Shown piece after piece: positions 4,548-33,748 of a stretch of 64,000 bases of DNA. Numbering within the stretch: position 1 is the stretch's first letter; the number at the start of each line of letters is the position of its first letter. The notes under the pieces were generated by a model. It was not told where the DNA came from, made no database searches, and saw nothing but the letters and a program-made list of their open reading frames with translations. A program made the position numbers and the translations under genes. Source of the DNA: an uncultured Schlesneria sp. (GTDB lineage Bacteria; Planctomycetota; Planctomycetia; Planctomycetales; Planctomycetaceae); assembly GCA_903858935.1 (NCBI GenBank), contig CAIOKO010000040.1, positions 1-64,000 on the forward strand. Direction: 5' to 3'.

Positions 4548-4583
4548 GTCCCATCAGTCCTATGGGTCCCATCAAGTCCCATT
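4548..4583. repeat. Short 9-bp-period repeat (GTCCCATCA GTCCTATGG GTCCCATCA AGTCCCATT)
   Basis: Four consecutive 9-nt units read directly; same motif class as 27542-27612. Confidence 0.7.
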
Positions 4584-5333: not shown

Positions 5334-8300
5334 GTGTGCATGATGCACCAGTCCAATGGAATGACGTCTTCCGGTTCCACCGTGGCTTCAACGACGGCTC
5401 CGAACAACTCAGGTCATCCTGGGCGTTCGTTGCCTGAGATTCGCCCGATGTCCGTAGCTCCAAAATTTTGCCCGGCGGATACCGATCCGTTCACCACGGT
5501 CGATTGGGACTACCGTACGGCGGCAATTAAGGATGAGAACGGCAAGGTTCTTTTCGAACAGACCAATTGCGAAATCCCCTCTGCATGGACCCCCCTGGCG
5601 ACGAACGTCGTCGTCTCAAAATATTTCTATGGTGAGCATGGGACACCCGAGCGTGAAACGAGCGTAAAACAGGTTATTCACCGCGTTGCTCGTACGATTG
5701 CCGACTGGGGTATCGAGGGTGGTTATTTCGCCAGTCGTGAAGATGGCGAAAACTTCTATCGCGAACTCGCCTGGATGTGTCTGCATCAGTACGGTTCGTT
5801 CAACTCCCCAGTCTGGTTCAATGTCGGGCTATACCACCAGTACGGCGTGAAGGGGGCCAAGGGGAATTATCACTTTAACCCGGCAACGCAAGTCGTTGAG
5901 CGACCAGCGACTTCGTACGAACTTCCCCAGGCATCCGCCTGTTTCATTCAGGCCGTCGATGACAATATGGAAGACATCATGCGGCTCGCAACCAGCGAAG
6001 CCATGCTGTTCAAGTTTGGATCGGGAACGGGAACCGATCTGTCGACGATTCGCGGTTCGAAAGAAAAGCTGTCAGGTGGTGGAACACCGTCTGGTCCCCT
6101 TTCGTTTATGCGAGTTTACGATCAAATTGCAGCCGTCGTGAAATCGGGTGGAAAGACCCGTCGCGCAGCGAAAATGCAATCACTCAAGGATTGGCACCCT
6201 GATATCCTTGAATTCATTCAATGCAAGAAGAAAGAAGAGAAAAAGGCTCGTGTTCTGATCGATAGCGGCGAATACGACGCGAACTTTAACGGCGAAGCTT
6301 ATTCGTCGATCATGTTCCAGAACGCCAATCTTTCCGTCCGATTGAGCGACGAGTTCATGCGGGCCGTTGAAGAAAACAAGAAGTGGAAGACCCGCTGGGT
6401 GACCGATCCCAGTAAGAATGGGCCCGAGTACGATTCCAAATTCATTCTTCGACAGATGGCTGAAGGAGCCTGGTCGTGTGGCGACCCGGGTGTTCAGTAC
6501 GATACGACCATCAACAAGTGGCACACCTGCCCTAATTCAGGTCGCATCAATGCTTCTAATCCCTGTTCGGAATATATGTTCCTCGACGATACCGCCTGCA
6601 ATCTGTCCAGCCTGAACCTTCGCAAGTTTCAGCAACCGGACGGCGGTTTTGACGTAGAACGGTTCCGTGCCGCAGCATCGATCTTCATCACGGCCCAGGA
6701 AATTCTGGTTGATAACGCCAGCTATCCAACCCCGACGATTGCCAAGAATAGCCACCTGTATCGGCCGCTTGGATTGGGTTATGCCAATCTCGGCAGCTTG
6801 CTGATGTCGATGGGGATTCCTTATGACAGTGACGCTGGACGTGGAATCGCAGGCTCGCTCACAGCACTTCTGACCGGCCAGGCCTATCTGACCTCCAGCC
6901 GAATTGCCGGATACCTTGGCCCCTTCGCCGGGTACAAAGACAATGCCGAGCCAATGCTCAGAGTCATGCGAATGCACCGCGACGCCGTCGATCGGATTGA
7001 TTCGACATGTCCTGAATACTTGCGAAACGCTGCAGGCAAAGTCTGGGATGAGTGCGTTGATTCGGGTCGTCAATTCGGATACCGAAACGCTCAAGCGACG
7101 GTGCTGGCTCCGACTGGAACAATCGCATTCATGATGGACTGCGATACGACGGGAATCGAGCCTGATATCGCGCTGGTGAAGTACAAACAGCTGGCAGGTG
7201 GGGGAATGATGAAGATCGTCAACCGGACGGTCCCACTCGCCCTGCGTACCTTGGGCTACGACGCGCCGGAAATCGAACGAATCGTCAAGCATATTGAAGA
7301 GACCGAGACGATTGAAGGTGCGGCTGATTTGAAGCCCGAACATGTTGCCGTTTTTGACTGTGCCTTCAAGGCCAATAACGGAACACGGACGATCCACTGG
7401 AAAGCCCACGTGAAAATGATGGCTGCAGCCCAGCCGTTCCTTTCGGGTGCGATCTCAAAAACGGTCAACATGCCATCCGACAGCACGGTTGACGATATTG
7501 AAAAGGCTTACTTCGAAGGCTGGCGACTTGGACTGAAGGCCCTTGCGATTTATCGCGACGGTTCAAAGCAAAGCCAGCCATTGTCAACGACCAAAGAAGG
7601 GGATCGTAAGAAGGGTGGTGCAGCCGGCGATCGACCAGCTCGACGTCGACTTCCCGCAACCCGCAATTCGTTGACACATAAGTTCTCGGTGGGTGGCCAC
7701 GAAGGCTATATCACTGTCGGCTTATTCGAGGATGGGACTCCTGGCGAGCTGTTCATCAGCATGGCCAAAGAAGGAAGCACCATCGGCGGCCTGATGGATG
7801 TCATCGGAACCGAAACTTCGATGGGCCTTCAATATGGTGTTCCCCTGGAAGTTCTGGTTGAAAAGTTCTCACATTCGCGGTTTGAGCCGAGTGGTTGGAC
7901 ACCGAATCCAGACATTCCGAATGCCAAAAGTATTGTCGACTATATCTTCCGATGGCTTGGTATTCAGTTCTTGCCAGGTTTTCGCGAAGCAAACACACCA
8001 AAACGACCTGAAGCGAATGTTTTTGGTGACAGCGAGGACGTCGCGGAAAGCCATCGATCGGCCGAAGTCGCTTCGACGAAGGCAATGCCTGCGACTTCGG
8101 CCTCAGCGACGAATGGTCACTCCAATGGCAGCCATGCGACCAATGGCCACAACGGAAATGGTCATGCGACAAATGGTCATGCGACCAACGGCCATGCAAC
8201 AAACGGTCACACGACTAATGGACATGGGGCGAACGGACATGCCAATGGTAAGGTGCCAGTCGCGGTGATGCAGCGAATGACACCTTCGCTGAAGACACTG

Positions 8301-20639: not shown

Positions 20640-23342
20640 ATGCTTAGTTTTGATGCGAGTTCATTTGCAATCGCCGGGGCCATCGCGGCGGCCGGACCGA
20701 TCCTGATTCATCTTTTGAATCGACGACGATTCAAAACGGTGAATTGGGCTGCGATGGACTTTCTCCGTGAAGCGATCGAGCGCAACCGCAAAGTTCTGCA
20801 CTTGCGAGATATCCTGCTGCTGGCGCTACGAATGCTGGCGATCTTATTGTTTGGCCTGGTGTTGTCCCGTCCGTTTTTCAAAGGGGCAGCATCGACCGCG
20901 ATGTGGCAGGCCTTGTTACTTGGGCTGTGCCTGCTGGTTTCGTTTGGATTCGCGATCGGATGGGTGACCAGCCGAAGCGGACGGGGCAAAGTTTTGCTCG
21001 CCACGGGAATGCTGGCAGGACTACTCGCATCAGGTTTTCAATTGTATGGATTAGCTCGACAGTCCGCTGATGTGAATGAATCAATGGCCAGCGCACGGGC
21101 GCCTGTGCATGCAGTCATTGTGATTGACAACAGTCGCAGCCTGGGGGTGGAATCACTCGGTGGAACGCTGCTAGATCGTGCAAAAGGGAAAGGAGCAGAG
21201 TTCATCGATTCTCTGCCACCCGAAAGCCGGATCACTCTGATTCCACTCGCTGGTTCTGAAGACCCGTTTACGTTGGATGCCTATCGCAATAAGGACGACG
21301 CACGGCGAGCCCTCGATCGTGTGAAGCTTGTCGATGCCGAGGGAGGAATCCGGGCTGGACTGGAACTTGCCGAACAGGCATGCCGTCAGACAGTTGACCC
21401 ACCTTCAAAACGGGTCGTTTTGCTCACCGATTTGCAAGCGACCGCATGGCAATCGGTTGTTTCCGTTGATTTATTGCAACGTCTCTCGGGCCTGCAGGTT
21501 GTCAATGTGGCGACAATGCCCGCAAGAAATGTCTGGGTCACTGGCCTGCATATTGAAGATGGACTGACAAGTTCTGAAGTCCCTTGTCGATTGCTTGCTC
21601 GATTACATGCAAGCGGTATCGGAACTGGCTCAGATCTGCCTGCAGAAAGTGAATCGTTTGCAGTACAGATCAAGCTGTTAGTCGACGGAGCCGAAGCGGC
21701 CAGTCAGGTGATTGACTTGACGCCCGGACAGGAACGAGAGATCGAGTTCGCGCACCAGTTCGATCTGCTTGCGGACCCGCTGAAACCAGGTTCTGCCGTT
21801 GTGACAATTGCTGTGCAGTCGGAACTGGCTTCTTCAGATCAACTTCCCGCCGACAATCGGCAGCAGGTCGTCGTGCCAATTGTGGCATCACTGCCGGTAA
21901 TTTTTATTGATCAGCTTGGAGATCAGGAAAATCTCGAACAGAACAAAATTGGTGAGACGTATTCTTTACGTCATTTGATGGCTCCCCGGTCAAGTTCTGA
22001 TAAATCACAACGACGATTGATTCACATCGAGCACATACGACCCGATCAAGTGACGCAGGAATTACTGGAAACAGCGCGGCTTGTCGTTATTGCGGGGGTA
22101 GAAAAGCCGGATGAGGCAACAGTTCGATTACTGCGCGATTTCGTTCAGCAGGGGGGCCCGCTGGTGATTCTCGCCGGAGGGAATTTTGACCCGACGGCAT
22201 GGACAGAACGGGCGTGGCTGTCAGGGCAAGGAATACTTCCGGCCCCGCTCGATTCGAAACCGGTCGGATTCACTCCTAATGATGCGCCGGGACAACTACA
22301 TCCGTTCTACGCACTCTTCGGGTCGATGCAGCATGACTTTTTTCTGATCGAAGGTGAAGACCCCAGGGTACTCTCGTCACTGTTTGAAGCAACACCGTTT
22401 TTTAAAGCCGTTCGCGCCGATCTTAGTCCGAACGTTCTTGAGAATCTCGCCGCGACAGAGACCAGACGATTTTCGGACGAAAGGACTTTCCTCGACAACT
22501 ATCTGGCTCGTACGACGACACGTCACGATCGCGCTGGCAGTTCTGGCATACTTGACGAAGATGATCTGACGTTTCGCCGGCTTGAACCGATCTGGTGGAA
22601 CTGGCGATCGGCACTCCCTCTCGTTGATCGCTCATTGGCTCCTGTGGAATCAGCAAAACGAAGTCAGCCACGCGTGCTTGCCGCATTCGATGGAGATCAT
22701 GGTCCCTTTGTCGTTGAACGTCGTGTCGGTGCAGGTCGAATTGTTCTCTTTACAAGCGGAGTCACGTCCGACTGGAACCTGCTTCGGGGCTCAGCGGCGA
22801 TGTACATGTTTCATCGCGCCTTTTGTCAGTTGATGGAAGGAACCCTTCCATCAAGAAACTACGTTGCGGGCCAAAAGATGACCTTACCTGTCGAACGACG
22901 AAGCGATGTCAGATATTGGTTAATCCGACCAACGGGAGTCAAAGAGCCTTTGAATGTGGACGTGATTGGTGCAAACGTCTCTGGTGTCACCATTCGTCGT
23001 CCCGTACTGGCGGGGACCTATGCCGTAACTTCAGAACAGACTGACACCACGTCGCCTGGTTCGGCATCGAATCGACTGGAAGAAATTTCGTTGGCGGTGA
23101 ACGGATCGGAAAATGAATCGGATATGACAGCAATCTCGATCGCCGACCTGCAACAAAAGCTTGGACACGACGATGTTCGTATTCTGGCTGCCGACGAGCC
23201 AATTCGGCTGGAGGGGGGTGCCCGTCGCGGTCAAGATCTGTGGAAGCTGTGCGGCTGGTGTGCCTTGGGATGCCTGTTGTTCGAAATGATGGTACTGGCC
23301 TGGCCCATGCTGGGGAAAAAGAGTCAGGTGACGCAACAATGA
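20640..23342 (+). CDS. BatA domain / von Willebrand factor A-like membrane protein
   Basis: N-terminal BatA signature 'AAAGPILIHLLNRRRFKTVNWAAMDFLREAIERNRK' and vWA-like 'VIVIDNSRSLGVESLGGTLLDRAKGKGAEFI'. Confidence 0.85.
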   Translation: MLSFDASSFAIAGAIAAAGPILIHLLNRRRFKTVNWAAMDFLREAIERNRKVLHLRDILLLALRMLAILLFGLVLSRPFFKGAASTAMWQALLLGLCLLVSFGFAIGWVTSRSGRGKVLLATGMLAGLLASGFQLYGLARQSADVNESMASARAPVHAVIVIDNSRSLGVESLGGTLLDRAKGKGAEFIDSLPPESRITLIPLAGSEDPFTLDAYRNKDDARRALDRVKLVDAEGGIRAGLELAEQACRQTVDPPSKRVVLLTDLQATAWQSVVSVDLLQRLSGLQVVNVATMPARNVWVTGLHIEDGLTSSEVPCRLLARLHASGIGTGSDLPAESESFAVQIKLLVDGAEAASQVIDLTPGQEREIEFAHQFDLLADPLKPGSAVVTIAVQSELASSDQLPADNRQQVVVPIVASLPVIFIDQLGDQENLEQNKIGETYSLRHLMAPRSSSDKSQRRLIHIEHIRPDQVTQELLETARLVVIAGVEKPDEATVRLLRDFVQQGGPLVILAGGNFDPTAWTERAWLSGQGILPAPLDSKPVGFTPNDAPGQLHPFYALFGSMQHDFFLIEGEDPRVLSSLFEATPFFKAVRADLSPNVLENLAATETRRFSDERTFLDNYLARTTTRHDRAGSSGILDEDDLTFRRLEPIWWNWRSALPLVDRSLAPVESAKRSQPRVLAAFDGDHGPFVVERRVGAGRIVLFTSGVTSDWNLLRGSAAMYMFHRAFCQLMEGTLPSRNYVAGQKMTLPVERRSDVRYWLIRPTGVKEPLNVDVIGANVSGVTIRRPVLAGTYAVTSEQTDTTSPGSASNRLEEISLAVNGSENESDMTAISIADLQQKLGHDDVRILAADEPIRLEGGARRGQDLWKLCGWCALGCLLFEMMVLAWPMLGKKSQVTQQ

Positions 23343-25825
23343 ATTGGACGGGGACGATTGGACGACTGCTAGGCCATGACGACGTGTCGAAGATCGAATC
23401 GGCACGAGTCTCCTTTGGTTCGGCGTGGGCACACACCTCGCCTGCCTTAGTCCTGTTTGGCTGTCTCGGTCTGACCGCCTTAACGGTCTGGTTCTATTTG
23501 CGATGGCAGGCATTTGGACATCGTCCAACACGTTTGTTACTGGCCGCGTTGCGAGCGATCTCGCTGTCGTTGCTACTGCTGATTTTAGCTGATCCGACCC
23601 TGGAACTGTCGCTGGTCAGTATGCCGAAACCTGTGCTATGGCTTCTACTGGATGGAAGCGACAGTATGTCGATCCCGGACGAATTCCCAGAGTCCGATCG
23701 GAACACTTTGGCGAAGGCCGTTGATCTGAATGGGTATCGAGCTTTGCAAAAAGCCGAGAATCGCTCGCAAGAAAAGGTTCCCGGTCCAGGCCAGGCCGAA
23801 TCAGCCGACCGACCGACCCGTGCCGATTACGCAAGATCGCTTTTGTTGAAGATGGATCGGAACCTGCTCGAGCGATTGTCGACGAATTTTCGACTTCGGT
23901 TTTTCAGTTTTGGTGAAGCGGCGGGAGTTCGGCTGTTAAACAACAGTGACTCGAAAGACCATCGTCTGCCGGTTGAATACTGGCAGGCGACAGGAAACGT
24001 GACAGCGTTAGGTGATGCGTTTGAGGATCTGGCTCGTCAACACGCGACGGACAACCTGGCAGCGGTGCTTGTTATCAGCGACTTCGACCAAAACTCTGGC
24101 ACGCCACCACTTTCTGCCGCCAAGAAGCTTGGAGTTCCTGTTTTCACCGTGGGGGTCGGATCGCTCACTGCTGTTGATTTGAGCGTCGATTTACTCGCCC
24201 CGCCAACGATGAAAAAAGCCGAATCTTCCACCTTTAGCGTCACGGTTCGGCAACGTGAACTTGAAAACGCATCTGTTACCGTCCGGCTTTACTCGAATGC
24301 ACCAGGGAATGGCGAGGCCGACTCCTCGACCAGAGTACTGATCGGAGAAAAGACGATTACGATCGTCGGAGGGAGTTCGCAGATCGAGTTTCCGTATACT
24401 CCCGATGGAACCGGCCGGTTTGTATTTACAGCCGAAGTTGATCCTGTTGCGGGTGAAGTCGTCACGCAGAACAATCGAGTGGAGCGGGAAGTCAATATTA
24501 TCGACGATTTTCTGCGTCTGATGTTTGTCGAATACGAACCGACGTGGGAATGGCGGTTTGTTAAAGAAGTATTTTATCGCGACAAACTTGTCGGTGCGCG
24601 CGGCTTTCGCACGTTTCTGCGTTCGGCAGATCCTGTCGTCCGCGAAACCAACGATCTGTTTTTACCAACACTGACACTTCCACGAAGTCAGTTCTTCGAG
24701 AACGACGTCATCTTCCTTGGTGATATGCCCGCCTCAGCATTGAGCACTCGTTTCTGTGAAATGACGAAAGAATTTGTGAGCCAGTTTGGTGGGGGGCTGG
24801 TCGTGATCGCTGGACCTCGATTTGGTCCAGGTCAACTGGCTGAGACTCCGTTAGCCGACATGCTGCCGGTCGTGGTCGATCCCGATTCCAAGCGGCGTGA
24901 CGGCAAGGAATTTCGGCTGACTCTGACACCCGTCGCAGGTCAATTCGATTTTATGCGACTTGGACTGACTGATGCTGAAAACCTTAAAGGCTGGAATAAT
25001 CTGAGCAAACTTCCCTGGTATCAGCCAGTCCGCCGAGTCGAATCAAGGGGAACTCAGGTTTTAGCCGAACATCCGACCGATATGTGCGCCGATGGCAAGA
25101 CTCCACAGCCGTTAATTGCCATACGGCAATACGGTCGCGGCGAAGTCGTGTACGTGGCTTTCGATGAAATGTGGCGGCTACGAAAACTTTATGGCGAAAG
25201 TTTTTACCGTCAGTTCTGGGGCCAATTGATTCACCGGCTGGGATTGAGCCATGCGCTTGGCAGTCATAAGCGCTTTGTCGTCAGAACAGACAAGACACAA
25301 TTTCGCTCGGATGATCAGGTGCAGGTGACAGTCGAAGCCTATGATAAAGAGTTTCATCCATTGGATGAAAAAGAAATTCCCGACCGACGACTCTCCGCCG
25401 AACTGATTCGTCCTGATCGTGACTCTGAGGGAAACCGTGCGCAGACTTTTGGTATCCCCCAACTTAAACAGGGGATCTTCGAAACAAGAGTTCCTGTATT
25501 CAGCGGGGGCGAATATCTGTTGCGAGTCACTGACCCGATTGCGAACGAGGTTGTTGAGATGAACTTCAATGTCGCAAATGTTTCCATCGAGCGACGCAAT
25601 CCGATTCGAAACGTGATGTTGCAAAAGAACATCGCGGCGGAAACGGGTGGCAAATCGTATGACCTGCTGGATGTCGACCAGTTTCCGGATGAATTTCAGC
25701 CCGTCCGTCAAAAGGAGACAAGCTTAGAAATCATTCCTTTGTGGAGTACCTGGCTGACATTCGGGCTGATGATTTCGCTTTTGATCGTGGAATGGTTTGT
25801 CAGAAAACGGGTGAATTTGGCTTAA
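23339..25825 (+). CDS. vWA/glutamine amidotransferase-like membrane protein of the BatA/MoxR cluster
   Basis: 'VLWLLLDGSDSMSIPDEFPESDR' (vWA MIDAS-like) plus N- and C-terminal TMs; ATG overlaps previous stop (ATGA). Confidence 0.75.
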   Translation: MNWTGTIGRLLGHDDVSKIESARVSFGSAWAHTSPALVLFGCLGLTALTVWFYLRWQAFGHRPTRLLLAALRAISLSLLLLILADPTLELSLVSMPKPVLWLLLDGSDSMSIPDEFPESDRNTLAKAVDLNGYRALQKAENRSQEKVPGPGQAESADRPTRADYARSLLLKMDRNLLERLSTNFRLRFFSFGEAAGVRLLNNSDSKDHRLPVEYWQATGNVTALGDAFEDLARQHATDNLAAVLVISDFDQNSGTPPLSAAKKLGVPVFTVGVGSLTAVDLSVDLLAPPTMKKAESSTFSVTVRQRELENASVTVRLYSNAPGNGEADSSTRVLIGEKTITIVGGSSQIEFPYTPDGTGRFVFTAEVDPVAGEVVTQNNRVEREVNIIDDFLRLMFVEYEPTWEWRFVKEVFYRDKLVGARGFRTFLRSADPVVRETNDLFLPTLTLPRSQFFENDVIFLGDMPASALSTRFCEMTKEFVSQFGGGLVVIAGPRFGPGQLAETPLADMLPVVVDPDSKRRDGKEFRLTLTPVAGQFDFMRLGLTDAENLKGWNNLSKLPWYQPVRRVESRGTQVLAEHPTDMCADGKTPQPLIAIRQYGRGEVVYVAFDEMWRLRKLYGESFYRQFWGQLIHRLGLSHALGSHKRFVVRTDKTQFRSDDQVQVTVEAYDKEFHPLDEKEIPDRRLSAELIRPDRDSEGNRAQTFGIPQLKQGIFETRVPVFSGGEYLLRVTDPIANEVVEMNFNVANVSIERRNPIRNVMLQKNIAAETGGKSYDLLDVDQFPDEFQPVRQKETSLEIIPLWSTWLTFGLMISLLIVEWFVRKRVNLA

Positions 25826-27519
25826 TGATGCAGACCAAACTGAGGATACTTCGCTCCGAACTCGGCCGCCTTCAGCGGAAGCGGGCATTCGTGCGCTGGG
25901 CAAGTGCTCTTTGTGCGCTCACCGCATTTTTGTTGTGGTTACTGGTCGCGGCATTCCTTGCGGACTGGTCCTTCAATCTGTCGATCAGTCGTCGCACGGC
26001 ACTTTTGGCCGCCTGGATTTCAGGAGGGCTTTGGACTCTCAAGAAGTTTGTCTGGCCAGTCATTTGGGTGAGAGAAACTGCGGAAGATGTCGCACTGATC
26101 GTCGAACAACAGAATCATATCGACAGCGACCTTGTCGCGGCGTTGCAGTTCGAGCGACCCGAAGCAAAGAAATGGGGATCATCACGACTTGCCGATGCGG
26201 TTGTGGATTATGTCGCGGAATTCAGTCCTTCCCTGAATGTTTTTGAAGGGTTTTCGTACCGGCCGTTACCTCAACGAGCGATCGGACTCGGCGTGACAGT
26301 CTTACTTGTTGCTGGATCGGCGTTCGCATTTCCCGGTCACGCGTCTGCGTTCTGGAACCGTTTTTTCCTCGGTACGGCACACTATCCGACGAAAACCAGA
26401 ATCGAATCGATCGGGATCAACGGCAACGACATACCTGTCTTTGAATCACTTAAGATGTCGCAGGTTCGGATCCCTTATGGCCAGCCAATCACAGTTGAAG
26501 TCAACTGTGGTGGCGAAATTCCATCGTCGGGGTATGCCAGCTTATCCAGTTTGCATAGTGATTCAGTGAACCGAATAGAATTCGGTAAGGTCTCTGGCAG
26601 TTCGAAAACGTTTGCGGGTGAGATGACACATATCGCTGATTCATTTCGCGTGCGATTTCATTTTGGCGATGCCGTATCCGATGCCGCCGAAGTGACGATT
26701 GTGCCGTTGCCTCTGATCGATATGGCATGGACCATCACACCTCCCAATTATGCAAAGGGATCGTTGAAGCCAGGTGAGTACGATGGGGGGTCGCGACAAT
26801 TTTCCGTACTGGAAGGTTCGTCGGCGACGTTAAGACTGGTTTGTTCTAACAAACCGCTGACGTCAGCCCGATTGACGATGGGAGAAGTGACTTACGATCT
26901 GGTGTCATCGACCGATGACCAACACCGAGTCACGACGTGGAGGTTACCGCCGAATTCTCCATTTGAAACGATCACCGAGGCTCTCAAGTACGAGATCCAG
27001 GTGACTGATCGCGATGGTCTGGCATTAGAGACGCCAATCGCCGGAGAGATTCGACTGAAAACCGATCGATCGCCCCGGATCGTTGCCTCGGCAGTCACCC
27101 GACAGGTTCTTCCGACCGCTCAGCCAAAACTCGATTATGCCGCAGGTGATGACTACGGAGTCGCGAACATTGTGGCTGTGATCAATATTTCTCGCGAGGA
27201 TGGTCGGACGTCTCGGCATGAGGTTGTGGCAAAGGTTGTCGAGGAAAAGGACCAGCCGCAGACGATTGTTCGAGGTCAGGTGACCATCCCTTTATCGACG
27301 TATGAACTGCTTAAAGGGGACGAAGTAAAAGTCGTCCTCGAGGCGACGGACTGGCGAGGCAGCATTTCGGGCCAGAAGGGACTGGGCGAACCCATTAGTT
27401 TTACAGTGACGGACTTGAACGGCATCCTGGTGCAGACTGGTGAAGAAGACAAGAAGTCGGCGAAACAACTGGATGAGATCTTGCGACGCGAAATGGGGAT
27501 TGGCGGGGATAAGAAGTGA
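25825..27519 (+). CDS. DUF4175-like membrane protein of the BatA/MoxR cluster
   Basis: Two N-terminal TMs and an Ig-like region; start overlaps previous stop (TAATG). Architecture resembles planctomycete MoxR-cluster proteins. Confidence 0.6.
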   Translation: MMQTKLRILRSELGRLQRKRAFVRWASALCALTAFLLWLLVAAFLADWSFNLSISRRTALLAAWISGGLWTLKKFVWPVIWVRETAEDVALIVEQQNHIDSDLVAALQFERPEAKKWGSSRLADAVVDYVAEFSPSLNVFEGFSYRPLPQRAIGLGVTVLLVAGSAFAFPGHASAFWNRFFLGTAHYPTKTRIESIGINGNDIPVFESLKMSQVRIPYGQPITVEVNCGGEIPSSGYASLSSLHSDSVNRIEFGKVSGSSKTFAGEMTHIADSFRVRFHFGDAVSDAAEVTIVPLPLIDMAWTITPPNYAKGSLKPGEYDGGSRQFSVLEGSSATLRLVCSNKPLTSARLTMGEVTYDLVSSTDDQHRVTTWRLPPNSPFETITEALKYEIQVTDRDGLALETPIAGEIRLKTDRSPRIVASAVTRQVLPTAQPKLDYAAGDDYGVANIVAVINISREDGRTSRHEVVAKVVEEKDQPQTIVRGQVTIPLSTYELLKGDEVKVVLEATDWRGSISGQKGLGEPISFTVTDLNGILVQTGEEDKKSAKQLDEILRREMGIGGDKK

Positions 27520-27541
27520 ATGAAGAAAGAAATCGAAGAAT

Positions 27542-27618
27542 GGGACTTAGGGGACTAATGAGACCTATCAGACAATATAAGTCTCATAGGTCCTATACGC
27601 CCCATAAGTCTGCTTTTT
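27542..27618. repeat. Imperfect long inverted repeat built from 9-bp GGGACYTAT-like units, followed by CTTTTT
   Basis: Left arm GGGACTTAG GGGACTAAT GAGACCTAT CAGACAATA; right arm TAAGTCTCATAGGTCCTATACGCCCCATAAGTCTG (reverse complement has the same 9-mers). Confidence 0.75.
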
Positions 27619-27696
27619 AAAAACCAACCACTTTTGCCAAGCCCTGAATCCAAAAAACGATTACTAATGTCAGCAGCAGTTTGAAGGGGTTCGAAA

Positions 27697-30600
27697 ATGT
27701 TATCGATCCAATTGCGGCAGGTTGTGATTTATCTGTTGGTCGTAATCTTCTGCAGCAGCAAGTTTCTGGTCGCTCAGGTACTTGAGCCTGAAGCGTTGCA
27801 ACGAAAGCAGGAAGACCAGCAGCGCGCTCGCACGTTGACACGAGACTTGCTGGGTGGAGTGCTCGACGTGCAATTACGCCAGCTCGAAGAAAACGGACTT
27901 TCCGATCAAGAGATTTATCGCGACATCAAGCTCATGCGATCAAATCTGAATCATCTGGTCGAAACCGAAATGTCGAAGGTTGTTGACCTGTTGGCCGAAG
28001 CTCAGCGGTTGCCTGCCGAAAGACGTGAAGCAACTTTTGTCGAGGCACGGCAACAAATTCGAACGGTTGTTCGGCAACTGGCGATCGAACGGCAAAACCT
28101 GTTGAAGCGATTGAAAATTGCCGAATTGGCGGAGCAGGTCCGACGATTAATACGGCAGCAGATGGTCGTGCAAACGGCCACCAAAGGGCTACCTGCGGAA
28201 ACACAGGCTCGCCAGGAAGCACTGACATTGAAGACAATTGAAGACCAGCGTGACGTGAAGGAATTATTCCTGCATCTGGTCGACACAATGGTCGACATGA
28301 AATCCTGGAGCGGTTTGTTAGCGGCGACTGCTGCAGACGGGTTACGAATTCTAAAAACGGCCGAAGTCGGGAAGCATTTCGATGGAGCAGGTCGTCAGCT
28401 GCAAGCCGTGAAATACACCGTCGCCTGTGAAGAACAGGAGCTGGTGATCAAGGGGCTCAGAGAGCTTTTGAAAGTGATCGAGCGGACTCAGGGAGCGCTG
28501 AATTCAGAACACATGGCATCGATCGATCGTATTCGGGCATTGACCGACAGGCAGAAACAACTTCGTGAAGAAACGAAATCACTTGCAGATAATCAACCTC
28601 CTTCGGCAGAAATGGTTGAGCGACAATCCGAGCTTCAGAAAGAAATTACTAAACTCACTGAAGTCATTCGTGACAACACCAAGGCCGACTCGCATATCCA
28701 GCAGGCGGAGGCTGCAGCCCTCGAAGCGGCAACAAATCTGCTCGATGGCAAACTTGAACAGGCAACTGCCGATCAAGGTCGCGTACTGGGCAATCTCGCG
28801 GCATTGGAACTCGCATTGAAGGATCAGGCAAAACAGCAGTCGCGCGACAAATCAGCGAATGAACTGGCCAGCGCCGTCAAAGCACTTCAGGTCGCCAAGT
28901 CGATGTTGTCCGAGGCTCAGAATAAGCAGGCTTCTGCGGAGTCGAAGGCGGAAACGAACGCACAGTCCGCAGCACCCGATACAAAACAAGTCGCGCAGAT
29001 CACTCAACGTGCGAAAGACGAACTTGAATTGCCGGCGGCTGTCGTGAACGCATTGGCTGATACGACGCGTGCTGCTAACGAAGCGACGACAAATCTGGAA
29101 TCAGCCGCAGCCGAAAAAGCGAATGCGGTTGAAGAAAAGGCTCTCAAAAAAGAGCGAGATACACTTGATCGCGCAATGGCCACTGTTGATGCGGCGCTGG
29201 CAGATGCCCAGCGTCAGGAGTCTGCGGTGAAGATCGGAGAACTCGCCCGGGCGGCCGAGGTACTCGAACGTGCAGCTGCAGAAGAACGAGCAATTGCTAA
29301 AGAGGTTGCGTCGCTCATTCGCGCCGATCAGGCTGCGGATGCAGAAACATCAGAGAAAGCAAAAGACCTGGTGATCCGGCAACAGGATGTCAAAGAGATT
29401 GCCGAGAAATCTGCAGAAGCACTCGCTCAAACGTCACCTGCCGCGTCAAGGGACGCAACCGAAGGAGCGACGAAGTCACTGGAGTCCAGGGACAAGCTGC
29501 AGGCCGTTGCAGACAAGAAGCCTGCGGATATTAAGGAAGCGGTGACTCAGGCTGTTTCATCTGCGATGGAAGCGTCACAAAAGTTGGCGGACGCAGCCAA
29601 AGAGATCCGAAAGGAAATTGTCGCGACGGCAAAGGATCTGGCTTCGCGAACCACGGCCCAGGCCGAACAGTTAGCAGATGCAAGAGCCGCGGTTGAGAAG
29701 GCCATCGACGATCTTCCATCGCAGGACAAAGTCGCGCAACTTGAAGCGGCAAAGAACGAACTTGGTCATGCGATGCAGGAACAGGCTAAGGCTTCTGGAA
29801 AGCCTGAATTAGCCCTTGCGATGGAACTCGTGAAACAAATTGCAGATTCGCTGGATGCACAAGATGCCGCTTCGGCAGCCGCAACGGCGGCTGAGTCTGG
29901 ACTTGGTTCCGAATTAAAAGCGACGACCAGGCAAGAAGAAGTGGCTGAAAAATCTTCGGTTGCCGCTGCGACCGCTGCAAAAAGGTTGCAGGCTCAGGAA
30001 GCAAAGTCACAAGGGAAACAAGATGTTCTGACAAGAGCATTGAATGAAGCTCAACAGGCTGCGGCGCAAGCAGCGAAACAGACCTTAGACGGAGATCAGC
30101 CTGCTGCGAAAGAATCTCGCCAGACGGCAGAAACAGCGTTGAAGCAAGCGTTGACGGTGGCCAAAACCGAAGCAAATGCTGTCATGAATACTTCACCGAG
30201 TGCTCCGCTCGATCAGCGATCCCAGGCAAAGGCAACAGCGGCAACCAGGGAGGCCGAAATGATGGCAACCAAGGCATCAACTGAAGCTGGGGCTGACATT
30301 CATCCGGCCGCAGTCGCAACGAATGCAGCCGAACAGGCATTAACAACTCATCCGGAACAAGCGCCGGCTGACCAGGCAACAGCCGTCGATGAATTGCAAA
30401 AGGCGGGAAAGAAACTGGATGCGGCAATTCAGAGGGCTGCAGCCGATCAGGGTAAGGCATTAGTTCATCAGGCCAAAGAGAACACCTTGCTGGCCGAAAG
30501 AATTGCTGCAATCGAACCCGCTGCAGCGGATGCAATTGGTGCCGCTGCAACGGCAGCGCAGGCGGGATCGGAAGCACTGGAATCACCCCGTCAGATGGCT

Positions 30601-31644
30601 GAAGCAGCAAACACCGCCGAGTTGGCACTTGAGCAAGCTGCTGCCGATCTTGGCGCGAAGGAGCAAGAAATCAGGCGTGATCAGGCGATTGCGGAATCCG
30701 TCGCGAATCTCACTCAAGGCCAGCAGACTGCCGCAGACATGATTGCCAAACAAGCGGCACAACTTGAAAACATGGCCAATGCAACCAAGGACGCACCGAC
30801 CGATGCTGACCAGGAAGCGGCTCAACTACTCAGTGACGCACAACAACAGTTTGCGGATTCACAACGAGCGACAGGTCAGGGAGCAGTCGAATTAAGTGGC
30901 CAGACGGAAGTTGCCAATCTGCCATTACGTGAGGCACTGGAATTGGCGTCCAAACTTCCTGCAATCGATCTTCCCAATGGTATGCTGGAAGATGCGATGT
31001 CACCGGACGGTCCGCTTATTCCAGCGGACGGTCAACTCGCCGCCGATGGCCAGCCCGCTTCCACGGAAGCTCAGCCATCAGGTGACGCACAATCCCTGAC
31101 AGAACAACCCGATGCCAAGACAGCAGGACAGCCACATACGGGGAATTCTGCACCTAAAAGCCCGGCAAACCTGGGGACCGGTTTCGTTCCCAATTCTCCT
31201 CATTTGACAGCCGAAATGATGGCAGGATCGAAGGCTCAGCGAGCTGCGCAGAAGGCGCTGGGTCAACAACTGCCGCTCTCCCAACAGTCCAAAGACAAGA
31301 CGATGCCGACGGCACAAGATACAGACATCGATCAAGGTAAACCGATTGATGGTGAGCAAGCCAAGTCGTCGAAATTGACGAAGAAAGAGGGTTCTGCGAC
31401 GACGAACCAGAAGGTCAAAGATGGGGCCATCGAAAAGCTGCCGGAAGGAACCGACTCCATGGCCAAATCATCGAACAAGGGCCGCGAAAAGGAAGAAAAC
31501 GTCTCGGTTCGACAACTGAAGGAAGAAGCCTGGTTCGCCAAGCTTCCTCCGGAATTGCGAAAATCGATTCGGGCCGGTGCCGGGCAAAAGCCACCTCGAG
31601 CGTATGAAGAACGGCTGAAGAATTACTTTCAAAGTGTGGACTGA
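27697..31644 (+). CDS. 1315-aa Ala/Gln/Lys/Glu-rich coiled-coil protein of the BatA/MoxR cluster
   Basis: Signal-like N-terminus MLSIQLRQVVIYLLVVIFCSSKFLVAQ; low-complexity helical body; C-terminal tail 'WFAKLPPELRKSIRAGAGQKPPRAYEERLKNYFQSVD'. Confidence 0.8.
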   Translation: MLSIQLRQVVIYLLVVIFCSSKFLVAQVLEPEALQRKQEDQQRARTLTRDLLGGVLDVQLRQLEENGLSDQEIYRDIKLMRSNLNHLVETEMSKVVDLLAEAQRLPAERREATFVEARQQIRTVVRQLAIERQNLLKRLKIAELAEQVRRLIRQQMVVQTATKGLPAETQARQEALTLKTIEDQRDVKELFLHLVDTMVDMKSWSGLLAATAADGLRILKTAEVGKHFDGAGRQLQAVKYTVACEEQELVIKGLRELLKVIERTQGALNSEHMASIDRIRALTDRQKQLREETKSLADNQPPSAEMVERQSELQKEITKLTEVIRDNTKADSHIQQAEAAALEAATNLLDGKLEQATADQGRVLGNLAALELALKDQAKQQSRDKSANELASAVKALQVAKSMLSEAQNKQASAESKAETNAQSAAPDTKQVAQITQRAKDELELPAAVVNALADTTRAANEATTNLESAAAEKANAVEEKALKKERDTLDRAMATVDAALADAQRQESAVKIGELARAAEVLERAAAEERAIAKEVASLIRADQAADAETSEKAKDLVIRQQDVKEIAEKSAEALAQTSPAASRDATEGATKSLESRDKLQAVADKKPADIKEAVTQAVSSAMEASQKLADAAKEIRKEIVATAKDLASRTTAQAEQLADARAAVEKAIDDLPSQDKVAQLEAAKNELGHAMQEQAKASGKPELALAMELVKQIADSLDAQDAASAAATAAESGLGSELKATTRQEEVAEKSSVAAATAAKRLQAQEAKSQGKQDVLTRALNEAQQAAAQAAKQTLDGDQPAAKESRQTAETALKQALTVAKTEANAVMNTSPSAPLDQRSQAKATAATREAEMMATKASTEAGADIHPAAVATNAAEQALTTHPEQAPADQATAVDELQKAGKKLDAAIQRAAADQGKALVHQAKENTLLAERIAAIEPAAADAIGAAATAAQAGSEALESPRQMAEAANTAELALEQAAADLGAKEQEIRRDQAIAESVANLTQGQQTAADMIAKQAAQLENMANATKDAPTDADQEAAQLLSDAQQQFADSQRATGQGAVELSGQTEVANLPLREALELASKLPAIDLPNGMLEDAMSPDGPLIPADGQLAADGQPASTEAQPSGDAQSLTEQPDAKTAGQPHTGNSAPKSPANLGTGFVPNSPHLTAEMMAGSKAQRAAQKALGQQLPLSQQSKDKTMPTAQDTDIDQGKPIDGEQAKSSKLTKKEGSATTNQKVKDGAIEKLPEGTDSMAKSSNKGREKEENVSVRQLKEEAWFAKLPPELRKSIRAGAGQKPPRAYEERLKNYFQSVD

Positions 31645-31705
31645 ATGTTTTGGTTAACGAAGCGGTCCTTCATTTATCCTCAACTCAAGAATCAAGAACG
31701 TGAAC

Positions 31706-32734
31706 ATGACAACGGAAAATCTTGCTCCCGACGAAGTGGCTGCGGTTCAAAAATGCGAAGGGGCCTACAACACACTTAAGGACGAACTGGCCAAAGTCAT
31801 TGTCGGCCAGAATGAGGTGATCGAACAGGTCCTGATCGCGATCTTTGCTCGGGGTCATGCCTTGCTTGAAGGGGTCCCCGGTCTTGCCAAGACGCTGCTG
31901 GTCAGTTCGCTGGCTCAGGCACTGCATCTTTCGTTCAAGCGGATTCAATTTACTCCTGACCTGATGCCCAGTGACGTCACAGGGACCGACGTCATTCAAG
32001 AAAATATCGAAACTCACAATCGCGAATACAAATTTCTTCCCGGCCCGTTGTTTGCGAATATGATTCTTGCGGATGAAATCAATCGGACTCCGCCGAAGAC
32101 TCAAGCGGCCATGCTTGAGGCAATGCAAGAACGTCAAGTTTCTGCAGGTGGCAAGATTCACAAGCTGCCGGACCCGTTCTTCGTACTCGCGACGCAAAAC
32201 CCCCTTGAACAAGAAGGAACATATCCCCTTCCTGAAGCGCAGCTCGATCGTTTCTTGCTGCATATTCGAGTCGACTATCCGTCAGCGGCTGACGAGTGGG
32301 AAGTCGCGAGACGAGTGACGTCGGGTCAGATGGGTGAAATTCGAGCGGTACTCTCTGGCGACGATATTATCGGATACCAGAAGCTGGTTCATCGCGTTCC
32401 CGTCAGTGACCAGGTACTTGGCTACGCTCATGCACTGGTTCGAGCCTCGCGACCCGGCGCGATTGAAGCGCCTGACTTCGTCAACAAGTGGGTCAATTGG
32501 GGAGCAGGACCTCGCGGTGTACTGACACTTGTGACGTGTGCGAAAGCGAGAGCGATTTTGTACGGTCGATACCACGCCACGATCGGCGACGTTCAGGCTG
32601 TCGCGAAGGGAGCATTGCGACATCGAATTGCTCCGAACTACGCCGCACAAGCGGCGGATGTGAACAGCGAGAAATTAATCGGAATGCTGTTGGAGAAAAC
32701 GCCTGCTGACAAGAAGTATGTGCAGCCCGCGTAG
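31706..32734 (+). CDS. MoxR-family AAA+ ATPase
   Basis: 'GHALLEGVPGLAKTLLVSSLAQAL', 'FTPDLMPSDVTGTDVIQ', 'LADEINRTPPKTQAAMLEAMQERQV', 'LATQNPLEQEGTYPLPEAQLDRFLLHI'. Confidence 0.96.
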   Translation: MTTENLAPDEVAAVQKCEGAYNTLKDELAKVIVGQNEVIEQVLIAIFARGHALLEGVPGLAKTLLVSSLAQALHLSFKRIQFTPDLMPSDVTGTDVIQENIETHNREYKFLPGPLFANMILADEINRTPPKTQAAMLEAMQERQVSAGGKIHKLPDPFFVLATQNPLEQEGTYPLPEAQLDRFLLHIRVDYPSAADEWEVARRVTSGQMGEIRAVLSGDDIIGYQKLVHRVPVSDQVLGYAHALVRASRPGAIEAPDFVNKWVNWGAGPRGVLTLVTCAKARAILYGRYHATIGDVQAVAKGALRHRIAPNYAAQAADVNSEKLIGMLLEKTPADKKYVQPA

Positions 32735-32845: not shown

Positions 32846-33748
32846 ATGTCGAGTGTTCTTTCGAGGTATTTGAATCCCGAGGTTCTCAGCCGAATTGCTG
32901 ATCGGCCGCTGGAGCCGCGCGGCCTGGTCGTTGGCAACCTTGCGGGGGCTCATAAGTCGCCGCTCAGCGGCTTTGCCGTCGAGTTTGCAGGGCATCGCGA
33001 CTATATCGTTGGAGACGATCCACGACACATTGACTGGCGTCTGTATTACAAGCGAGATCGCCTTTCGATCAAACAGTACGAGATGGAAACGAACTTTGTC
33101 TGCCATCTACTGCTGGATGTCAGTGCCTCGATGCGCTATGGCGAAGATGCTCAACAGAAATTGACTTATGCGGCCCAGGCCGCGACGACGCTGGGTTACT
33201 CGATCGTCAGGCAGAACGACAAAGTCTCGCTGGCGACCTTTGACGATAAAGTTCGCGGATACGTCCCGCCCGGGAATTCACTCGCCCAGATCCATCGGAT
33301 GACGCTTCATCTCGACGAGATTGCACCCGTTGAGAAAACGAAGATGTCCGAGTGCTTGACCGACTTGACCGGTCGAATGGGCCGTCGCGAAATCGTGATG
33401 ATTTTCAGCGATTTTTTTACGGACCTGGAGTCTCTTGAATCAGCCCTGCAGCGGATGAAGTACAATCGTCATGAAATCGTGCTGTTCCATGTCCTGCATC
33501 ATCACGAGCGATCGTTTCAGTTCGAAGGAATGGTCAAATTTCTGGGATTGGAAGAGGTCGGCGAATACTTAACACAGACCGAAGATATCCGTCAGGCATA
33601 TCTCGAAGCGATGCAGCGGTATGAAACCGCCTTCGACGAACTCTGTCGCCGAAACGCCATCGAACGCGTTTCGGTGGACACCAGCCACAATTTGGGTGAC
33701 GATCTGGTCGAATACCTCAATCAGCGAACTCGAGTTCGAATCCGTTAA
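32846..33748 (+). CDS. DUF58 domain-containing protein
   Basis: 'GNLAGAHKSPLSGFAVEFAGHRDYIVGDDPRHIDWRLYYKRDRLSIKQYEMETNFVCHLLLDVSASM'. Confidence 0.95.
   Translation: MSSVLSRYLNPEVLSRIADRPLEPRGLVVGNLAGAHKSPLSGFAVEFAGHRDYIVGDDPRHIDWRLYYKRDRLSIKQYEMETNFVCHLLLDVSASMRYGEDAQQKLTYAAQAATTLGYSIVRQNDKVSLATFDDKVRGYVPPGNSLAQIHRMTLHLDEIAPVEKTKMSECLTDLTGRMGRREIVMIFSDFFTDLESLESALQRMKYNRHEIVLFHVLHHHERSFQFEGMVKFLGLEEVGEYLTQTEDIRQAYLEAMQRYETAFDELCRRNAIERVSVDTSHNLGDDLVEYLNQRTRVRIR

Follow-up and report, generated by a model that had tools for sequence, protein, structure and literature searches.

The palindrome at positions 27540 to 27612 of the window, the 64,000-nt stretch of DNA analyzed here, belongs to a dispersed family of tandem ATGGGACNN units and is not a one-off attenuator. 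It is probably an old, eroding copy of a dispersed REP-like intergenic repeat, with at most an incidental effect at the junction where it lies. An earlier note, made from the sequence alone, had read it as a hairpin of a repeat type also found at 4548 to 4583, acting as an attenuator within a MoxR/vWA gene cluster. The hairpin, its membership of a repeat family, and its kinship with 4548 to 4583 held, but a dedicated attenuator for that cluster was not supported.

An inverted-repeat finder placed two 30-nt arms with 77% complementarity at 27544 to 27573 and 27581 to 27610, separated by a 7-nt loop (27574 to 27580). The palindrome was located in the intergenic gap with coordinates and sequence as described earlier, although the previous estimate of a ~35-bp arm was slightly generous. 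Folded as RNA, 27536 to 27625 gave -32.9 kcal/mol where shuffles averaged -16.4 (z -5.31), with 0 of 200 shuffles as good. By sequence, inverted-repeat finder, and unit scan, the left arm (27536 to 27573, plus strand; unit scan score 16) consists of the array start AAGA (27536 to 27539) and four degenerate ATGGGACNN units (ATGGGACTT AGGGGACTA ATGAGACCT ATCAGAC), and the right arm (27581 to 27612, minus strand) consists of opposed degenerate units (GTCTCAT AG GTCCTAT AC GCCCCAT AA GTCTG). The repeat unit had been written as GGGACNTAT, for which ATGGGACNN is a better consensus. The CTTTTT tract said to follow the hairpin was present directly behind the stem (27613 to 27618, plus strand), and comparison with orthologs points to its probable origin from an ATTCTT end such as the relatives G004 and G005 have.

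Within the window, a unit scan found just two elements, this palindrome and 4548 to 4583; in the control, one array each was found in 2 of 20 shuffled windows. The 27-nt left arm had no second match in the window, with none expected in shuffles, and Rfam gave 0 matches above the gathering score in the window. The element at 4548 to 4583 (minus strand) is a single array lacking an opposed arm, supported by its sequence, the unit scan, Tandem Repeats Finder (TRF; period 9, GTCCCATCA), its fold, and relatives, being kept in G004 and decayed in G001. Its equation with the palindrome was therefore correct at the level of the period-9 unit but did not extend to a second arm or to the fold, which was weak (-8.0, z -1.84). 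Two repeats of other kinds were also observed in the window. Positions 400 to 521 are part of a second dispersed repeat, with blastn similarity to a G001 intergenic stretch (L385) and through that to G005 loci, and a 15/45-nt tandem repeat at 8133 to 8242 lies close to where a predicted gene ends.

The palindrome lies between two plus-strand genes. The upstream one (25741 to 27519; gene call, Pfam, and relatives), whose start may be internal (Met29), had been called DUF4175-like; the resemblance was recovered, but at 23.2 bits, under the Pfam cut-off of 27.3. The downstream gene (27697 to 31644; gene call and Pfam) encodes 1,315 aa without a Pfam match. The MoxR/vWA cluster described around the palindrome was confirmed by Pfam, with MoxR at 31700 to 32734, DUF58 at 32846 to 33748, and BatA/VWA at 20640 to 23342. 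Attenuation by a leader peptide was considered for a 12-codon open reading frame starting at 27520, just past the upstream stop, and was rejected, the ATG being absent in G001, G004, and G005.

The dispersal of the family was established by the genome-wide array scan that the earlier note had proposed, run on the window's own genome (G000). The ATGGGACNN pattern gave 67 matches at up to 2 mismatches, counting overlapping matches inside one array separately, whereas its reverse gave 0; another pattern search, allowing up to 3 mismatches, gave 48 matches and likewise 0 in reverse. Across the 15 genomes of the genus set, the number of ATGGGACNN matches ranged from 0 to 100, with 77 to 100 in the three close relatives G001, G004, and G005, 18 to 24 in G003 and G011, 4 to 7 in G012 and G014, and none in seven genomes (G002, G006 to G010, and G013). 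The exact three-unit pattern occurred in 4 of 199 genomes sampled from the phylum, and the family is therefore patchy. The exact four-unit pattern was found in at least 120 contig stretches in Planctomycetes, Verrucomicrobia, Lentisphaerae, Acidobacteria, Chlamydiae, Hydrogenedentes, and others. Among the matches listed, 92 of 189 strong arrays had an opposed array within 110 nt, Schlesneria loci and a small number of overlapping self-matches being included in the count. These matches were mixed, and some, such as those on Bacillus-type and viral contigs, resemble coding repeats (ATGGGACAG, Met-Gly-Gln) and probably lie outside the family.

The general plan of the family is a run of tandem ATGGGACNN units (ATGGGAC plus two free bases), often as an opposed pair, AAGAATGGGAC[NNATGGGAC]n-loop-[GTCCCATNN]nGTCCCATTCTT. 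In contig stretches of G000, G001, G004, and G005, 84 elements were read, some of them orthologous to each other: 32 with a +- pair (29 simple and 3 compound), 5 with -+, and 47 running in one direction only. More than a third of the arrays had no partner. Four units was the commonest array length in these four species (64 of 124 arrays). Whether in a palindrome or alone, arrays began behind a purine-rich stretch, which was AAGA for 44 of the 124. This accounts for the ATTCTT that closes an intact palindrome, whose U-rich end complements the start of the array and is no added terminator tract. Gain and loss of 9-nt units between copies was also seen.

Across 461 units, positions 1, 2, 5, 6, and 7 (A, T, G, A, and C) were 95 to 98% conserved and the GG at positions 3 and 4 86%, while positions 8 and 9 were free; the difference between the AT + GAC core and GG was significant (p 4e-23). 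In arrays from other phyla, which lie outside the ascertainment, the pattern was less clear, with 95 to 99% at positions 1, 2, and 5 and 71 to 87% at positions 3, 4, 6, and 7. Coding selection was rejected, as the variable positions 3, 4, 8, and 9 fit codon degeneracy in no frame. Given the AT..GAC constraint, simple neutrality does not describe the family taken together. A doubtful but conceivable extension is that the mirrored ATGGGACNN arrays of Planctomycetes, Verrucomicrobia, Lentisphaerae, Chlamydiae, and Acidobacteria all belong to a single type of element, shared horizontally, in which AT..GAC would be kept, independently of hairpin pairing, by a dedicated undescribed protein that reads or copies it.

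With gene calls from a hexamer model made for this analysis and run on draft contigs, 16 of 41 intergenic elements lay within 40 nt of a stop codon, compared with 12% expected from length-weighted random placement (p 1e-5), and 2 of 41 within 40 nt of a start. Divergent gene pairs flanked nine elements, and of the 56 elements placed, 6 were inside predicted genes. Arrays inside genes include one that forms a NGTDGTHGTNGTK linker in an FAD-dehydrogenase fusion. REP elements show a similar bias toward gene 3' ends. The bias of the ATGGGACNN copies can be explained by tolerance alone.

The orthologous junction was readable in G001, G004, G005, G014, G008, G013, G011, G002, and G006; G003, G012, and G007 were left out, and the upstream gene was not matched in G009 or G010. 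The element was present in G001, G004, and G005 and absent from the other six, which were all the more distant relatives read. In G008 and G014 (L240 and L239), unrelated palindromes follow the upstream gene, GTGAGCCGGGTGGCGTCAGCCCCCGG... and CACGTCGAGG...CCTCGACGTG. The folds in G004 and G005 were -30.7 and -30.1, and energies near -30 are the expectation for neutral decay of a perfect ancestral palindrome, assuming that the ancestor was perfect. In G001, most of the right arm was gone, leaving a 10-bp outer stem (fold -14.4, z -3.4). The tract behind the element read CTTTTT in G000, GTTTTT in G001, and ATTCTT in G004 and G005, with T5 in the first two only. Element identity (0.66 to 0.78) was lower than that of the flank (0.73 to 0.84) in five of six pairwise comparisons, the exception being G000-G005.

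The palindromes showed no sign of selection for arm pairing. Across 29 +- palindromes, identity of the two free bases at the same index was 0.20 against 0.17 shuffled (p 0.22), and core variants matched between arms without clear excess (10 double against 8.0 shuffled, a slight nominal difference). The complementarity therefore comes from the shared unit, with mismatched steps at the free bases, and not from maintained pairing.

These comparisons bear on the proposal that the palindrome is a functional partial terminator, in which the hairpin and U-tract would release some transcripts and lower expression of the downstream 1,315-aa gene. The strong fold with T5 directly behind the stem, the preference of the family for gene 3' ends, and the presence of a hairpin of some kind in all four close species agree with such a role, and transcription attenuation is reported for BIMEs of Escherichia coli by Espeli 2001, as cited in PMC12306157. 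It is nevertheless unlikely. The U-tract, whose conservation is expected of an intrinsic terminator, varied between species, the element was generally less conserved than its flank and was missing from the more distant relatives, and the closest relative, G001, had lost most of the right arm while retaining the outer stem. Furthermore, no site at 27540 to 27618 was among those of the terminator scan, the two arms did not covary across the family, and like elements occur at many unrelated loci, as single arrays, inside genes, and between divergent gene pairs. Judged from sequence, partial termination in this one genome is possible as an incidental local by-product. Against the reading as an old repeat, the persistence of the outer stem even in G001 and the appearance of T5 in two species could be taken as selection for a terminator, and neither an insertion event nor a transposase was caught.

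Other sites gave the same picture of age. At the C217 site, the intact form was present in G000, G001, and G004, with differing unit numbers and free bases and a terminal inverted repeat, GAAGAATGGGAC...GTCCCATTCTTC; the G005 copy was shorter and ended TTCTTT, and no element was shown in G014, G006, G007, and G002. The array in the FAD-dehydrogenase fusion lies in a variable linker and was common to the four close species. Further sites with both flanks mapped were all common to the close relatives, some of them eroded, and the copies therefore predate the split of the compared species. No insertion event or presence/absence polymorphism was found among the compared close-relative sites, no empty site was exactly alignable, the more distant junctions did not align, and no target-site duplication was seen by eye at the compared sites. 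By reading of the printed copies, no GTAG or CGTC tag was noticed at the ends, the intact ends being AAGA-ATGGGAC and GTCCCAT-TCTT.

The last two results weigh against a non-autonomous mobile element of REP/MITE type whose movement would depend on a Y1 (RAYT-like) transposase, as does the lack of polymorphism among the compared sites, and this origin is considered improbable. In its favor, the family is dispersed, palindromic, intergenic, and patchy, and Y1 transposases were present in 15 of 15 genus genomes, with high scorers in array-rich genomes and also in some array-free ones. However, no palindromic array adjoined any of 20 Y1 loci in four genomes, the nearest approach being two adjacent units ~1.4 kb off at one locus. 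That the family is a simple repeat which forms G-quadruplexes and acts through them, comparable to GGGNATC in Xanthomonas and Nostoc, is very improbable: GGG recurs every 9 nt and the preference for four units, intergenic placement, and proximity to stop codons are shared with those repeats (PMC4692102), but a canonical G-quadruplex motif occurred in only 23 of 124 arrays and not in the window palindrome, and the first two G residues are the most variable core positions.

Under the reading as an old dispersed repeat, the ancestor of the four closely related Schlesneria-like species would already have carried copies, as was found wherever the flanks of a site were mappable. Each array of ATGGGACNN 9-mers would begin after a purine-rich AAGA, and here an opposed second array would allow folding into a hairpin whose short helices are separated by mismatched steps. 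Copies would change by the observed gain and loss of 9-nt units and settle preferentially just behind gene 3' ends, where they are found. A sequence-specific binding or copying factor may lie behind the AT..GAC constraint and the spread of the family. At this junction, the palindrome would most likely be just a hairpin tolerated at the 3' end of a gene, affecting the transcript weakly and incidentally, and it would have no regulatory role.

Short intergenic tandem repeats and REP-like palindromes are of a known kind. The GGGNATC heptamer repeats of Xanthomonas and Nostoc, mainly intergenic and near stop codons with four units preferred (PMC4692102), resemble the present family in their short G-rich tandem units, dispersal, and occasional opposed pairs. 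They differ from it in that the ATGGGACNN unit is 9 nt with two free positions, opposed pairs are common, arrays also lie between divergent genes, GGG is poorly kept, and most arrays lack a G-quadruplex motif. REP/BIME palindromes and GTAG/CGTC repeats (PMC3733652, PMC3116915) are likewise dispersed extragenic palindromes with a hairpin fold, and the ATGGGACNN family lies near gene 3' ends; unlike REP/BIME, its palindrome is made of two tandem arrays, with no GTAG/CGTC tag noticed and no palindromic array beside the examined Y1 genes. The TAACTGA direct repeats of Beggiatoaceae, Cyanobacteria, and Bacteroidetes (PMC4679880) are also short, intergenic, patchy across distant lineages, and subject to whole-unit changes, but they lie mostly just upstream of starts in one orientation, whereas ATGGGACNN arrays are placed behind stops, frequently in mirrored form. 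The literature searched contained no description of a mirrored 9-nt form with the AT..GAC conservation pattern.

The distribution of this 9-nt unit, often in mirrored form, is patchy: it recurs in distant phyla, and within the genus only part of the members have it. Hairpin pairing, coding, and G-quadruplex formation all fail to explain its conservation pattern. If an enzyme or binding protein is behind the arrays, the existence of both array-rich and array-free species in the Schlesneria-like group renders it a tractable target. For the locus itself, a hairpin that is a dispersed repeat is a caution against inferring regulation. Arrays were also observed in two further settings. A multi-copy block at contig ends (L286 1 to 500, L284, L285, L291, and L378) carries an array upstream of a small gene that starts MVQRFSSREEARQQAIERQ and has no Pfam match. 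A syntenic region with an array roughly every 1 to 2 kb was present in G000 (L286, C137), G004 (L372), G001 (L384), and G005 (L391), and one of its arrays lies inside a 440-aa gene without a Pfam match.
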